A stretch of DNA of 20,991 bases from positions 1 to 20,991 of the IMG/VR virus record IMGVR_UViG_3300008450_000575, one strand, 5' to 3'. Position numbers and translations under genes: made by a program. This DNA is from a virus. This document shows positions 1 to 17,830 of this stretch, in pieces. A model generated the notes under the pieces. That model was not told where the DNA came from. It searched no databases and was given only the letters and a program-made list of their open reading frames with translations. Positions within the stretch are counted from its first letter, which is position 1, and every line of letters starts with the position of its first letter.

Positions 1-477
1 TAGCCCGTTTTTCTTTTCCCCTATAACAAAGTTTTGCTCATTCGGTACTTCGATATTGTAAAGCGATAATAGTTTATTAGAGAGAACCGCATCAAATCTA
101 AAGTGGGTAGAATCTACGGTGAATGAATCGGTGAACGCTTCACAAGGTAATTGCTCACGAAAAACGTGGTTTATTGTATCGTACTTGAACACACTTTTAT
201 ACTTCACCAGCACATCAACAGTCTTTAATTTTAAATCCTTTTTCAGTCGCTCGACCTCTTGACTTTTGTTTTCTGCTAATAATTGTACTGCGTGATTGTA
301 CTCTACTAAATTTCCATTGGCTGTTTTATACACCTTGATTGAATCGGTATAATTTAGCAACTCGTTATTCATTAACATTAGCTCTTTTTTCTTTCCGCAG
401 CTATCAAGCCAAAAGAAAATCAAAGCAGCTACGCAAAGAAATATAATGATGTCTTTTATGTGTATTTTATACTTCAT
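1..477 (-). CDS. Spanin-like membrane-anchored lysis protein, 3' end outside window
   Basis: An open frame starts with ATG at 477 and runs off the left edge, giving 159 visible residues without a stop. Its ATG overlaps the TGA of the lysozyme gene (ATGA), so the two are probably translationally coupled. Residues about 8-25 form one hydrophobic segment (IIIFLCVAALIFFWL) followed by a cysteine in LDSCGK, which does not fit a good lipobox. A heptad-like charged stretch follows (about 68-90, with LLAENKSQEVERLKKDLKLK), then a mixed, probably beta-rich region ending near VIGEKKNGL. A protein with an N-terminal anchor and a periplasmic coiled coil, placed straight after the endolysin, is what an inner-membrane spanin looks like. 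That is inference from position and layout; I see no diagnostic motif. It could also be an unrelated membrane protein of Bacteroidota phages. Confidence 0.7.
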   Translation of the reverse strand, partial: MKYKIHIKDIIIFLCVAALIFFWLDSCGKKKELMLMNNELLNYTDSIKVYKTANGNLVEYNHAVQLLAENKSQEVERLKKDLKLKTVDVLVKYKSVFKYDTINHVFREQLPCEAFTDSFTVDSTHFRFDAVLSNKLLSLYNIEVPNEQNFVIGEKKNGL

Positions 478-3685: not shown

Positions 3686-4639
3686 TTAGAAATAATTACG
3701 CTTTATTGTATCTCGTGTTTTAGCTTTCATCGTTGCTTTAACTTTAGCGCATTTGTTTTGAACGTATGTTTTAACCTCTGTAATGGCAGATGGCTTTAAA
3801 GCTAATTCAGTTATTGGTGCGTGGTTGTAGTAATTGTAGTCAGTTACATATATTTCATTGCCCAAAAAAACATCCTTTAAAACATGTTGCATATTACTAT
3901 AATCTAACAACTCACTCTCGAATTCGTATCTATCTTCAATCCTATCTTGAATCTGTATAAACTCGTGGCTACTCTTTTCAATCTCATCTACAATAATCTC
4001 AGGAGTTGCATAAGTAACCATGCCTTTAACCCTTAACCATTGCTCAATATTTAAGCCTGTGAAGTTCACCTTGTTATTGAATATCTTACCATTTTGAAAC
4101 CAATTAAAAACTACTGTACCATTGGCTTTAATTGCTGAATAAATACGTAAGTAATATTCGTCGCTATATGTAGTGGTTGTTCCCCCTCCAAGTGCAGCCG
4201 TTACGGTTTTAATTCTATAATAACCTTCACCATAATTTGCGAGTACTGTTGCCCAATCTAAATAGAATGTTGCTAGTTTTGGCTGTGCTGTATAATCTCC
4301 TACATCTTGCCACACTCCATAAGTACTATTCGATACTTGAAATAAATCAGACCAAGTGCCACCGCTTTTTGTTTGAACGAAGAAATTAACATAACTAGCA
4401 GTAGACAAAGCAACTCCGAAAAATTGCGTTTTATCGTTGTATAAAGCATTGCTAAATACCAACTCCGCAAATACTTCATTTTGGTTTACTATTACATCGC
4501 ACTCATCTAACTCACCTAATGATTGAATTGCGCTTGTTGGCGTTTCTGTTGATGCCTCAGCAATAGTAAACACTTGCTCATATACGATGCCATCCATTAT
4601 CATTGGATTAGCGTTTGTCATATCTGTTGTAATTGCCAT
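3686..4639 (-). CDS. Putative baseplate or tail-tip structural protein
   Basis: The 317-aa product is soluble and mostly beta in its first two thirds. It contains a stretch resembling a fibronectin or receptor-tip sandwich (WQDVGDYTAQPKLATFYLDW near 112-131, then YYRIKTVTAALGGGTTTTYS). The last third looks helical and charged (EIEKSSHEFIQIQDRIEDRY, then HVLKDVFLGNEIYVTDYNYY) and ends in a Lys/Arg-rich tail (KVKATMKAKTRDTIKRNYF). I do not recognise a named family. Its ATG directly abuts the stop codon of the 802-aa gene with no spacer, and the fibre gene follows, so a role in the tail tip between hub and fibre is likely from synteny alone. Confidence 0.6.
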   Translation of the reverse strand: MAITTDMTNANPMIMDGIVYEQVFTIAEASTETPTSAIQSLGELDECDVIVNQNEVFAELVFSNALYNDKTQFFGVALSTASYVNFFVQTKSGGTWSDLFQVSNSTYGVWQDVGDYTAQPKLATFYLDWATVLANYGEGYYRIKTVTAALGGGTTTTYSDEYYLRIYSAIKANGTVVFNWFQNGKIFNNKVNFTGLNIEQWLRVKGMVTYATPEIIVDEIEKSSHEFIQIQDRIEDRYEFESELLDYSNMQHVLKDVFLGNEIYVTDYNYYNHAPITELALKPSAITEVKTYVQNKCAKVKATMKAKTRDTIKRNYF

Positions 4640-13928: not shown

Positions 13929-13961
13929 CAAATATATACAATATTTTATTTGGTTAGCAAT
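13929..13961 (-). promoter_or_regulatory. Bacteroidota-type promoter candidate for the tail tube gene
   Basis: On the minus strand the gap before the tail tube gene holds TATATTTG (13929-13936), an exact match to the Bacteroidota -7 element TAnnTTTG. ATTG at 13958-13961, 21 bases upstream, is a 3-of-4 match to the -33 TTTG element. From the -7 box to the ATG there are 47 bases, giving a leader of about 40 nt that is A-rich and has no Shine-Dalgarno site. AT-rich DNA can give such matches by chance, so this is a candidate. Confidence 0.5.
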
Positions 13962-14676
13962 TTCCGCACAAAATATTTGCATTTTTTGATATAGGTATAT
14001 TTCCATTTAATTCTACGCCTGCAAGATCATTGTTAAATATTGCCTCGCTGCCATTCTTTCCGTTGCGTACTACTTGCACATTCCATCTACTCCATTTAGC
14101 TAGTGAATAGTTTTCGTTTTGAGCATAAAACAGCCTTCTAGTGCGTATTTTACGAATAAACTCTAGTGCTAATTGGTGCATTCTGTCAACAACATTGCCG
14201 TACAAAGTTTCTATAACGCTGCTAGTCGGGTCGTATTGGTCTACAAAAAACATCTGAACTCTAGGTATTGAGCCAATAGGTGAATCAATATTAGGTAATT
14301 CAATATCTTTTATCTCGAACAATACTACTGCTGGATAGTTTTTATGCTGCTGCTGTTCTTTTCTGTCTATCTCAGCGCTTATGTCAATAGGCTGCCCGTA
14401 AAAGAAATAAGGAGCTAAAGCACTCCACGTAGTTGAACCCGTTAAGCTAGTAGAAGATTTAACTGTAAATGAAATATTAATACTCACCGCAGTAACTTTA
14501 ACAGCCGTAGCGCCAACATTAATATATTGACCTACTACAATATCCTTTGTGCAATCAACATTTATAGTCCAAGAGTTACTACCATTATTCACAACCGATA
14601 AAATAGAACCTGTTCTATCGGCTCTCATTTCGTCGATAACTTCTTTAATAATATCTTCCTCGCTTATGAATGTCAT
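13954..14676 (-). CDS. Tail completion / head-tail joining protein with small beta insertion
   Basis: The 240-aa product sits between the connector gene and the tail tube gene, the usual site for tail-completion or tail-terminator proteins. Residues 1-20 (ISEEDIIKEVIDEMRADR) are helical. Residues about 24-94 form a small beta domain (SILSVVNNGSNSWTINVDCT; VGQYINVGATAVKVTAVSIN). After it come IDRKEQQQHKNYPAVVLFEI, VQMFFVDQYDPTSSVIETLY and a helical stretch (VVDRMHQLALEFIRKIRTRR) that look like the body of a tail-terminator-type fold. The small beta domain resembles one in the protein encoded just upstream. The C-terminus is Cys-containing (NILCGNC). Its ATG overlaps the stop codon of the upstream gene by 1 bp. 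The role is inferred from synteny. Confidence 0.6.
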   Translation of the reverse strand: MTFISEEDIIKEVIDEMRADRTGSILSVVNNGSNSWTINVDCTKDIVVGQYINVGATAVKVTAVSINISFTVKSSTSLTGSTTWSALAPYFFYGQPIDISAEIDRKEQQQHKNYPAVVLFEIKDIELPNIDSPIGSIPRVQMFFVDQYDPTSSVIETLYGNVVDRMHQLALEFIRKIRTRRLFYAQNENYSLAKWSRWNVQVVRNGKNGSEAIFNNDLAGVELNGNIPISKNANILCGNC

Positions 14677-15464
14677 TATAACGAGTTATTTAAAAACATT
14701 TTATCTTTCTTCTTGCCTTTGAATGTCGGGAAAGCATCGTATGAAACCAATGTCGCAGCGTTAAAGTTAATACTAGCGCTTTCATTTATCTTAAATGATG
14801 TGTTAGCAACAAGTGAACTAATATTATAATCTGTTCCGCTTATGTTTACTGTGTCGCCATTTGCCATATAAGTAGTAGAAGGCACATAAAAAGTATGTGT
14901 TCCATCACCATTATTACTTACGCTTGTCGATGTAGTTTCAATATCTTTATGGTCTAGTATGAACTTTCTTGCTGCTCTATATAAATCAATGGCTGTGTTA
15001 TACTTTAACTCTAACCTTGCTAACATTTCACCGTTATCTAGTACAGCGCCATTCTGTGAACTTCCTTTTACGTTACCTAACATTGTATTGTGAAATACTT
15101 GGTCGTGTGCGTAGTTATAGTACGTGAATAACTTCAACATTCTTTCTAATCCTGTGTAATCTACGTTTAAATCAACGTCATCATCTACGCTTTCTTCGCT
15201 GTTGTTGTATGTTTCTATTACACTTTTGCGTGGGTCAACATAAACAACTCCATTCAATAAATCATCATACTTTGTTCCGCTTGTTGGTGTTGGCAATGTT
15301 GCGCCAAACTTCATATACAAATCATCACCTAGCAAATCTTTTAAGATGCTTTCTTGCACTTCTGCAATATATGCATCTACATCATCCTCAGTAAATGTGT
15401 TTACAGCTATTTTAACCTCACCTGTAAAGTCTGTATTTGCTAATATGCTAGTGTATTGGCTCAT
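14676..15464 (-). CDS. Head-tail connector (adaptor) protein with C-terminal beta domain
   Basis: This 262-aa product resembles the helical gp6-like adaptors that dock below the portal ring. Residues 25-55 (TEDDVDAYIAEVQESILKDL, then LGDDLYMKFG) are the characteristic helix pair, and 103-170 hold further helices (YTGLERMLKLFTYYNYAHDQ; NTAIDLYRAARKFIL). Residues about 178-248 are a separate beta segment (TSVSNNGDGTHTFYVPSTTY; GDTVNISGTDYNISSLVANT), which looks like an appended small barrel. The end is basic (KGKKKDKMFLNNSL). It starts 13 bases after a tRNA gene and overlaps the next gene by 1 bp. The adaptor assignment rests on the helical motif plus its place between capsid and tail tube genes. 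Confidence 0.7.
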   Translation of the reverse strand: MSQYTSILANTDFTGEVKIAVNTFTEDDVDAYIAEVQESILKDLLGDDLYMKFGATLPTPTSGTKYDDLLNGVVYVDPRKSVIETYNNSEESVDDDVDLNVDYTGLERMLKLFTYYNYAHDQVFHNTMLGNVKGSSQNGAVLDNGEMLARLELKYNTAIDLYRAARKFILDHKDIETTSTSVSNNGDGTHTFYVPSTTYMANGDTVNISGTDYNISSLVANTSFKINESASINFNAATLVSYDAFPTFKGKKKDKMFLNNSL

Positions 15465-15477
15465 CTTTTTATTTTTG

Positions 15478-15549
15478 TTGCGAGTGATGGACTCGAACCA
15501 CCGCCCTCTAGATTATGAATCTAGTGCTCTTCCTCTGCGCTAACTCGCG
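15478..15549 (-). tRNA. tRNA with anticodon CAT (Met, or Ile2 if lysidine-modified)
   Basis: The minus strand folds into a 72-nt cloverleaf. The acceptor is CGCGAGT against ACTCGCA: six pairs, with C1 opposite A72. The D arm is GCGC with loop AGAGGAA and GAGC (a G12/A23 mismatch). The anticodon stem CTAGA/TCTAG closes the loop TTCATAA. The variable loop is AGGGC, and the T arm is GGTGG-TTCGAGT-CCATC. The discriminator is A, and no CCA is encoded (CAA follows). The C1/A72 mismatch is an initiator-tRNA hallmark, but the anticodon stem lacks the three G:C pairs of initiators and position 11/24 is C:G, as in elongators. CAU could also be read as Ile2 after lysidine modification. The gene lies 10 bases after one stop codon and 13 before the next ATG, so it is co-transcribed with structural genes. 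Confidence 0.92.
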
Positions 15550-15559
15550 ATAACCTTAA

Positions 15560-16324
15560 TTACTTCTGTGGTAATATGTACCCGTATAGCTTACCTGCCA
15601 TTGTTCCAGAACCAGTCCAAGACAATCGGTAATATCTATATGGAGAACCAGTAATAATAAACATTCTTGTATTAATCGATACGTTTGAGCAACTCAATGT
15701 TGCAGAACCACCGCTAATATATGATGTGTTTACTGTTACATAGTTAGTACCATCATTAGAACCTTGCAAAGTAACTGTTCCACCAATAGTTCCGCTAGTT
15801 TTAGAACAAACTACTTGAATGGTTGCTACTTCGTATTGGTTTTTAACTTGAATTGATACAGTACCAGTACCTGAGTTAGTTACAGTAGTGCCGTTGGTAC
15901 TCATTTCGCTAACTATACCTTTACCTCCAATGGTCTGAGCAAATAAATAGCCATTGATAGAACCAGTCAATGTAGTTGACCCCGTAAATACTACTTTGTA
16001 CTTTCTGTATGCGTTATTATCAACTATCCACACATAAGAACTTGTACCACTTGCAGCCATCGCCAAAGTATCTGTACCAATTTGCTTGTAGTTTGAACCG
16101 TCAATAGAACCGTATAACTCTGCCTTACCTGCTGCTGTTCCGCTAATTCTTGTGAATGTAGCGTGAATAGATACCGATTTAGCGTAGTTGCTAACTGTGT
16201 AATATACACTATCAGCAGTTGTGTTAGTGATTGTATCACCGCTTCCAGTCATAGTAATTACATACTGTTGACCGTTAACAGCGAAAGCACACACTAAACA
16301 AACTAAGAATAATAAATTTTTCAT
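15560..16324 (-). CDS. Secreted protein with two copies of a beta domain, in the head gene cluster
   Basis: The 254-aa product starts with a clear signal peptide: MKNLL, a hydrophobic core to about residue 16, and a probable cleavage site before Gln19 (AVNG/QQ). There is no good lipobox. The mature part is beta-rich and holds two related domains, about 45-130 and 163-253. They share an SGT-xxG turn, AELYGSIDGSNY versus VTLQGSNDGTNY, YRKYKVVFTGSTTLTGSING versus YRYYRLSWTGSGTMAGKLYG, and YxxxQ at the end. The duplication is therefore clear at protein level. No catalytic motif is visible. A signal peptide is unexpected between capsid and connector genes, because virion proteins are assembled in the cytoplasm. 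It may be a cargo (moron) gene acting at the host surface. The start follows the previous stop by 1 bp, so it is co-translated. Confidence 0.8.
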   Translation of the reverse strand: MKNLLFLVCLVCAFAVNGQQYVITMTGSGDTITNTTADSVYYTVSNYAKSVSIHATFTRISGTAAGKAELYGSIDGSNYKQIGTDTLAMAASGTSSYVWIVDNNAYRKYKVVFTGSTTLTGSINGYLFAQTIGGKGIVSEMSTNGTTVTNSGTGTVSIQVKNQYEVATIQVVCSKTSGTIGGTVTLQGSNDGTNYVTVNTSYISGGSATLSCSNVSINTRMFIITGSPYRYYRLSWTGSGTMAGKLYGYILPQK

Positions 16325-16325
16325 C

Positions 16326-16529
16326 TTATTTTTTTTTAGATTTTGATTTCTCTTTTTTTACTTCTGCTTCTTTTTTCTCCACGTCCTTAGCATCTTTATA
16401 CTCAACATAACCCATTACAACAAGTTCCTTCGCTGTTCTTAACGGCAAATTTAACTCTGAGCCATCTTGTATCTTTCCGCTTGGGAATGAATCACCAAAG
16501 CCTTTTTTAACTACTACTTTAACTTTCAT
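16326..16529 (-). CDS. Small basic protein after the capsid gene
   Basis: This 67-residue product is not recognised. The first 42 residues form a small mixed domain (MKVKVVVKKGFGDSFPSGKI; LPLRTAKELVVMGYVEYKD) whose pattern of a few strands and one helix recalls short head proteins that follow capsid genes in other phages. The last 20 residues are nearly all Lys, Glu and Ser (KKEAEVKKEKSKSKKK), a flexible charged tail. It is separated from the capsid gene by a 47-bp gap with a hairpin and from the secreted-protein gene by one base. A head accessory role is a guess from position. Confidence 0.6.
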   Translation of the reverse strand: MKVKVVVKKGFGDSFPSGKIQDGSELNLPLRTAKELVVMGYVEYKDAKDVEKKEAEVKKEKSKSKKK

Positions 16530-16576: not shown

Positions 16577-17830
16577 TTATGCAGTTTCAAGCGCTGCCAT
16601 GTCGGTAGCGAAAGTACCAGTTACGAAAGCTGTTCTGTCGTTATTCTTAACGAAGCAAACACCTCTCCACTCTGCTCTGATGGTTTTGAAGTTTTTAACG
16701 AAGTTATCAGAGTTCAATCCGATTTCAACAGTTACAGCTTTTCTATCCCATACATAAGCCTTAGTGAAATCACCCACTAAGTAAGTACCAGCAGTTACTA
16801 AAGTAGTTTCGATGATTGGTGTACCATCTACGCTCATTGCACCGTTAACCAACATTAATCTGTCAATGTAACGCTTATCGGTTGAACTTACCTTAGCAAC
16901 TTTCAATTTAGTTACATCAGTTGGGTGCATCATGATATAGTTTGGTGCATCTTGGTTAGCGATTTTGATTTGGTTAATCGCAACAGCTAATACATCTACT
17001 TCGTTTGCGTTATCAATTGCAGCAGCAAATGAACCAGCAGCGAAAGCAGTAGCAACAGTTTTGATACCATTCAAGATAGGTGATACACCAGAACCAGAGT
17101 AGCAACCAAGTTCAACAGCTTTTAACAACTCTTTTCTCAACTCACCGTCAATGATGCTTGCCATTTGTTCAGCATCTTCCAACATCTCATCGGTGATAGT
17201 GATGTAAGCTGTAACTTTCTCTACTTTTTGTGAACCTACCAATAAATCAAAATCAATTTGGTTTTTAGCAGCACCTTCGGCAGTTGCACCAGCAGTACCA
17301 TCTTTGTTAGCTTGGTAAACCCATTCTACTAATTTAGTAGATACAGAACCTCTTGAAACGATGTCCAATAATCTTGGCATACGTGAAGGGTAGAAGTTTA
17401 CACCCGCTACACGAGTAGCTTGTGGCACTTCGCCTGTTACGTTGTTTGAGAAACTCATGTCGCCAGCAGTTTTGATTTCAAACTTTACGTTTGCACCACC
17501 TTCTTTGATGGCTTTAATCTCGTTTGCTTTCTCTACTACAACATCTCTCAATGATTTCTCACTAACAGGCTCTTGTTTAGATAGTTTCTTCAACATAACA
17601 CCTTGCGCTTCTAATGCTGCGTTAAGTTGTTTAAGTTGATTGTCTTTCATTTCAGCGAAAGCAGCTTTTAAAGCCTCTACATTTTCAGAGTTAGCTTTAG
17701 TAGCATCTTCAATCTCTTTTCTTGCTTTTTCGTTGTACTCATTGTACAATCCTGCTAATTGTTCAGCTTCCATAGATTTAAGAGCCTCAACAGTTAGACT
17801 TTTTCCTTTTAAGAAATCTTCAAATTTCAT
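16577..17830 (-). CDS. Major capsid protein, HK97 fold
   Basis: The 417-aa product is the main shell protein. Residues 1-110 are helical and highly charged (LKSMEAEQLAGLYNEYNEKA; NVEALKAAFAEMKDNQLKQL), the scaffolding delta-domain of HK97-type capsids. This part is normally removed by the prohead protease, probably near 105-125. The mature part starts around KTAGDMSFSNNVTGEVPQAT and shows family features: the E-loop region (WVYQANKDGTAGATAEGAAK, 170-189), a spine-helix stretch (VTAYITITDEMLEDAEQMAS) and the P-domain (NYIMMHPTDVTKLKVAKVSS; then TPIIETTLVTAGTYLVGDF). Length and order fit the family. Its ATG overlaps the protease stop (ATGA). The final VKNNDRTAFVTGTFATD is also typical. Confidence 0.92.
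   Translation of the reverse strand: MKFEDFLKGKSLTVEALKSMEAEQLAGLYNEYNEKARKEIEDATKANSENVEALKAAFAEMKDNQLKQLNAALEAQGVMLKKLSKQEPVSEKSLRDVVVEKANEIKAIKEGGANVKFEIKTAGDMSFSNNVTGEVPQATRVAGVNFYPSRMPRLLDIVSRGSVSTKLVEWVYQANKDGTAGATAEGAAKNQIDFDLLVGSQKVEKVTAYITITDEMLEDAEQMASIIDGELRKELLKAVELGCYSGSGVSPILNGIKTVATAFAAGSFAAAIDNANEVDVLAVAINQIKIANQDAPNYIMMHPTDVTKLKVAKVSSTDKRYIDRLMLVNGAMSVDGTPIIETTLVTAGTYLVGDFTKAYVWDRKAVTVEIGLNSDNFVKNFKTIRAEWRGVCFVKNNDRTAFVTGTFATDMAALETA

Follow-up and report, generated by a model that had tools for sequence, protein, structure and literature searches.

Assembly of tailed-phage particles is regarded as a cytoplasmic process. The known cement and decoration proteins compared in this study are without an export signal, whereas one is predicted in 72 of the 74 distinct members of the family described below. 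Carin-1, a phage of Cobetia marina, encodes such a protein, gp42, which its genome record labels 'cement protein; structurally identified and validated' and which adjoins the gene for the major capsid protein (MCP), gp43; we equate it with chain A of structure 8cjz because its 130 residues agree with that 129-residue chain. In Pseudanabaena phage Pan5 (ON968456), gp7 (UXO94049) is named 'cement protein' by authors whose annotation relied on BLASTp, HHpred and AlphaFold2 plus Dali, and this role is a predicted one. XepA and YomS (PDB 6i56, 6i5o) stem from Bacillus subtilis prophages; XepA, from prophage PBSX, belongs to a lytic cassette, forms pentamers of two-domain subunits and has been suggested to be active at the membrane (PMC6834076). 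In phages of Porphyromonas gingivalis, capsid proteins are reported to carry signal peptides and five unknown genes to obey the Q-rule (PMC10367356), that is, a glutamine at position +1 of signal peptidase I substrates, as is characteristic of Bacteroidetes (PMC5837995, PMC10653852). Unlike the protein considered here, the latter were not linked in that study to a cement-like family.

Here we analyse a gene (the target) in a stretch of 20,991 nucleotides, referred to as the window, of IMG/VR virus record IMGVR_UViG_3300008450_000575; L numbers denote loci in our collection. Searches of the open-licence literature found no account of Bacteroidota phages exporting a product of the head operon, and none of the target family.

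The target gene and its surroundings

The target (15560-16324, minus strand) encodes 254 amino acids, which comprise, according to ORF call, alignment and model, a putative signal peptide and two beta-sandwich domains. The plus strand across the region is interrupted by many stops, and the coding ORF runs from 16324 to 15560 on the minus strand. Read from right to left, the head operon consists of TerL, the portal protein (PF04860; 18624-19877), a prohead serine protease (Peptidase_S78, PF04586; 17827-18591), the MCP (phrog_10; 16577-17830), a small lysine-rich protein of 67 residues (phrog_2616; 16326-16529) that stops 1 nt short of the target, the target itself, a tRNA-Met (CAT; 15477-15549) and, as the next head/neck gene, a connector-like gene with a weak match to DUF6712 (14676-15464). 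A 240-residue head-tail gene, whose place is conserved among relatives, follows at 13954-14676, and all of these features with coordinates lie on the minus strand. The neighbours from TerL to the connector-like gene confirm the head-cluster location given in the preliminary description, and co-expression of the target with the head genes is likewise supported. No terminator adjoining the target was seen in the window sequence, and the nearest sigma70-like match (16600-16572, minus strand), 5' of the small gene, is at chance level in a scan without Bacteroidota promoters. Between two close target relatives (L001 and L003) dN/dS is 0.085/1.12, and the gene is therefore under purifying selection.

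A tRNA-Met (CAT) also lies directly 3' of the target, inside the head operon, in several two-domain relatives (L001, at 4311-4383, L002, L003, L005 and L031); the copy in L025 is degenerate. At the far end of the window, positions 1-477 (minus strand) encode a 159-residue protein with an N-terminal transmembrane segment that adjoins the lysozyme gene and resembles an inner-membrane spanin.

A predicted signal peptide conserved across the family

Residues 1-18 of the target (MKNLLFLVCLVCAFAVNG; 16271-16324, minus strand) constitute, on the evidence of sequence and family conservation, a signal peptide with predicted signal peptidase I cleavage before Q19, in keeping with the Q-rule. The stretch, followed by QQ, has K at position 2, a hydrophobic core whose best 12-residue Kyte-Doolittle mean is 3.18, then V-N-G/Q (the slash marks the cut), with a small residue at -1 and Q at +1. 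By its basic N-terminus, core, AxA-like site and Q at +1 the target qualifies as a predicted substrate of Bacteroidota signal peptidase I. Conservation across the family is the stronger test of the predicted peptide. When a basic start, an acid-free and hydrophobic core and an AxA-like site with Q at +1 were demanded together, 72 of 74 distinct relatives passed, compared with 0.9% of shuffled N-termini and a single one of the 302 head proteins encoded nearby, so that the cleavable signal peptide noticed earlier looks genuine. The AxA/Q site is retained in nearly all members while the rest of the peptide diverges, and this pattern fits the combined action of signal peptidase I and glutaminyl cyclase.

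Two other export classes were considered and set aside. Type IX secretion cargo was rejected, as no T9SS domain occurs among the Pfam matches and the chain ends with the second beta-sandwich, and a lipoprotein was ruled out by the lack of a lipobox at the cleavage site.

A duplicated beta-sandwich domain

The two halves of the target align with 36 of 116 positions identical (31%), and their score of 159 lies far outside that of 2000 shuffles (mean 38.1, sd 7.0, maximum 79). An AlphaFold2 model based on 13 two-domain relatives (mean pLDDT 90.6) contains two beta-sandwiches joined by a linker of about 10 residues, the strands stopping at mature residue 117 and restarting at 128. Alignment and model place domain 1 at about residues 19-131 (15932-16270, minus strand) and domain 2 at about residues 132-254 (15563-15931, minus strand). 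The identity between the halves and the modelled pair of sandwiches bear out the duplicated beta domain of the preliminary description, and both kinds of motif recorded there, GSIDGSNY / GSNDGTNY and YRKYKVVFTGSTTLTGSINGYLF / YRYYRLSWTGSGTMAGKLYGYIL, recur in both domains; the domain length, however, is about 110 residues and not about 90.

Family libraries returned for the window protein merely weak matches to F5/8 type C (E 0.006) and phrog_16217 (E 0.018). Among 49 relatives, no Pfam or PHROGs match was common to more than 2, and a sequence search of the PDB yielded nothing convincing, with Carin-1 gp42 absent from the matches. At the level of structure, the best solved match of the family is XepA (Z 10.2 and 10.6). 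Carin-1 cement (8cjz_A) matches the single-domain model with Z 7.8 (rmsd 3.1, 104 residues, 22% identity), a value below XepA's and in the range, under 8, where Z can reflect merely a common arrangement. Z alone thus proves little, and the argument for a link with the Carin-1 cement combines gene position and fold. Like members of the target family, gp42 is a single beta-sandwich of about 130 residues encoded directly downstream of the MCP; unlike them it has no signal peptide, and its sequence similarity to the family is weak (the family HMM matches with E about 5e-5 in a one-sequence search, and hhalign gave no match). The preliminary description held that a fold known from capsid decoration would speak against a surface-modifying role: the Carin-1 match is of that kind, but XepA matches better.

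The resemblance to XepA introduces the most serious alternative, in which the target is exported late and acts in the periplasm or at the membrane, for example by blocking superinfection or re-adsorption to debris, or by an XepA-like weakening of the envelope for release, its place in the head operon serving merely high-level production. XepA, thought to be membrane-acting (PMC6834076), has two beta-sandwich domains as the target does, and the strongly conserved, genuine-looking Q-rule signal peptide also speaks for an envelope protein. On the other hand, XepA is pentameric and encoded in a lysis cassette, its linker measures 30 residues instead of about 10, and identities in the structure alignments are low, 2-10% for XepA and YomS together and 7-10% for XepA. 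The window lysozyme (474-1010) is 14 kb away, and the target is not in the lysis region.

Family size and genomic address

About 80 relatives of the target were collected from IMG/VR and 84,980 genomes, a single one coming from a Bacteroidota MAG; 395 Bacteroidota genomes, searched in addition, contained further ones in prophages. The family is without a name in Pfam and PHROGs, and is built of known kinds of parts, a cement-like fold and a Q-rule signal peptide. Most members have a single domain, and the window type has two fused behind one signal peptide; in L109 two target-family genes lie in tandem, each with its own signal peptide, which suggests a route to the fusion. When 50,697 phage records were searched by tblastn with the window protein and with three of its relatives, the sole good match was to Pan5, besides a marginal one in a Rhodobacteraceae phage. 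Loci L011-L018, which lack a signal peptide and share the GSNDGTNY motif and part of the gene order, were not accepted as proof of kinship, having been picked by motif and matching the profile over 28 columns.

Pan5 gp7, whose gene immediately follows that of the capsid protein, truly belongs to the family and has a Q-rule signal peptide; it differs from the window target in having one domain and an MCP of family phrog_7231. In this phage (L019, L021) gp18 and gp19 carry Q-rule signal peptides as well, and gp10 matches a Bacteroidota-phage tail gene (E 2e-27). Pan5 may thus in truth infect a member of the Bacteroidota that accompanied the cyanobacterium in culture, although high Q-values occur in some cyanobacteria too.

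In about 70 of the roughly 80 loci, the target lies either in the interval from MCP to connector or in the one that separates the connector from the head-tail gene after it. In about 23 loci 1-14 nt separate the MCP stop from the target start, and in 2 more the two genes overlap. The accompanying capsids belong to at least three unrelated types; head modules other than that of the window include phrog_7231 (Pan5, L087), phrog_267 (L222) and S49-protease modules (L093, L223). In L037/L038 the target adjoins virion structural and tail-like genes rather than an MCP. Sequence similarities are correlated between connector and target (Mantel r 0.62) and between MCP and target (0.39), the value for MCP and connector being 0.24.

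As these loci had been collected via the target, two extra scans were anchored on the MCP; the downstream tail gene was too divergent in alignment for scanning. For one MCP group the target lay directly downstream in about two-thirds of loci. Of the roughly 40 loci with the window-type MCP, the closest kin alone had it; the others that were examined closely had capsid and connector genes with no target-like gene in between. Since many relatives with similar MCPs lack it, the target is an accessory gene with a fixed address, not an essential part of the shell.

This distribution bears on two alternatives. The preliminary description regarded the gene as a possible superinfection or surface-modifying moron, and a recent acquisition would account for its patchiness around the window-type MCP. 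Yet the gene recurs in head operons, is tightly coupled to the MCP and co-inherited with connector and MCP, and its fixed place beside at least three unrelated capsid families makes a lone recent acquisition highly improbable. An envelope-acting protein fares better, as dispensability across relatives and tolerance of several unrelated capsid types are what such a function would allow. Coupled with the XepA match, dispensability makes this alternative a serious one, although we consider it less likely than a cement role: the target is nearly always beside head genes, and phages of other hosts have counterparts without a signal peptide at the corresponding position.

Among these counterparts is Pseudomonas phage PPpW-3, in which the MCP, a small gene and the beta-domain protein ORF-7 follow one another as in the window, ORF-7 having no signal peptide and matching the family HMM weakly. 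In L225, a protein of the same fold, also without signal peptide, directly follows a coat-like gene.

Other signal-peptide genes occur in such neighbourhoods. In prophage L223 of a Bacteroidota genome, the target relative adjoins two more (316 and 1099 aa) beside an S49-protease head module, and in L168 (5149-5871) a distant MCP is followed downstream by an unrelated Q-rule signal-peptide protein (MKTILSLLCVTVLACSAFGQ). More than one family of head-operon proteins may be exported.

Signal peptides on reported virion proteins

The preliminary description considered a signal peptide out of place in a virion part. This premise is weakened by five structural proteins annotated by MS/MS in Cellulophaga phages, all with Q-rule signal peptides: gp091-gp094 of phi10:1 (KC821618, L231; four out of four) and gp08 of phiSM (KC821616, L235). 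Export therefore does not exclude a role in the virion, although these proteins might be adhering contaminants, showed no Pfam family in common with the target, and are encoded close to the portal gene or among the tail-fibre genes. Among the structural proteins of phi38:1 and phiST none has a Q-rule signal peptide. The Cellulophaga phage structural proteins gp087-089 and gp094 of KC821608 (L234) also carry Q-rule signal peptides.

In related loci, one or two transmembrane-like segments form the N-terminus of about 11 of some 60 distinct MCPs (L004, L005, L006, L008, e.g. MKKVKDPTCMLGRKQKHASKIKGLALFAIFAIAMLFVGSMF, L009, L036, L042, L073, L086, L088, L096 and prophage L222), possibly a sign that some phages of Bacteroidota assemble their heads in association with a membrane. 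On this basis one could suppose that the N-terminal segment of the target does not serve export but attachment, either to the membrane or to the hydrophobic N-termini of capsid proteins, while heads assemble at a membrane, its removal, if any, being due to the prohead protease; prohead protease cutting of MCP signal peptides has been proposed for P. gingivalis phages (PMC10367356). Most MCPs, that of the window included, lack such segments, and the AxA/Q site of nearly all members fits signal peptidase I and glutaminyl cyclase, which leaves such an anchor rather improbable.

Proposed role and mechanism

We favour the reading that the target is a cement- or decoration-type accessory head protein that takes the Sec route and attaches to particles when the cell lyses, and give it a probability of about one half. 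The position next to the MCP recurs across head types; proteins of the same fold without signal peptide occupy the same place elsewhere (Carin-1 gp42, PPpW-3 ORF-7, L225); signal-peptide proteins are reported from virions of phages of Bacteroidota (phi10:1, phiSM); and the target is co-inherited with head genes while keeping its Q-rule signal peptide. For these reasons a cement role is proposed. At the sequence level the case is established for a predicted signal peptide, the duplication, the operon position, the probable fold class and family-wide conservation.

The target would be synthesised late, together with the other products of the head operon, and its precursor would cross the inner membrane by means of the host-type Sec signal peptide. 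Signal peptidase I would remove the latter and the new N-terminal glutamine would be cyclised. The folded beta-sandwich protein might then be stored in the periplasm and, at cell burst, bind released particles, most likely at the head surface. In the window lineage, two such domains would act as one protein, fused behind a single signal peptide.

Several findings speak against a cement role. Export parts the target from capsids formed in the cytoplasm, and late docking is an assumption. The best fold match is XepA, a lysis-cassette protein (Z 10.2-10.6 versus 7.8). Many relatives with similar MCPs lack the gene, and the L037/L038 copy is away from an MCP. Finally, the signal-peptide proteins detected by MS belong to the fibre region, not the head, and phi38:1 and phiST have none. 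Taken together, the data suggest that the family is either a virion-shell part exported before joining the particle or a shell-type protein turned into a cell-envelope tool.

Implications for phages of Bacteroidota

More generally, and tentatively, tailed phages of Bacteroidota might send decoration and fibre proteins through Sec, store them in the periplasm and attach them as the cell opens, with assembly continuing outside the cytoplasm; we rate this somewhat below even odds. To our knowledge, an export-dependent assembly step would, if shown, be new for tailed phages. The conserved export signal in a head operon, together with virion proteins carrying signal peptides, makes the addition of virion parts outside the cytoplasm directly testable. 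When Bacteroidota phages are annotated, the presence of a signal peptide should not by itself lead to the verdict 'not structural'. The family would bear, moreover, on capsid display and on the question of which phage proteins meet the host envelope.
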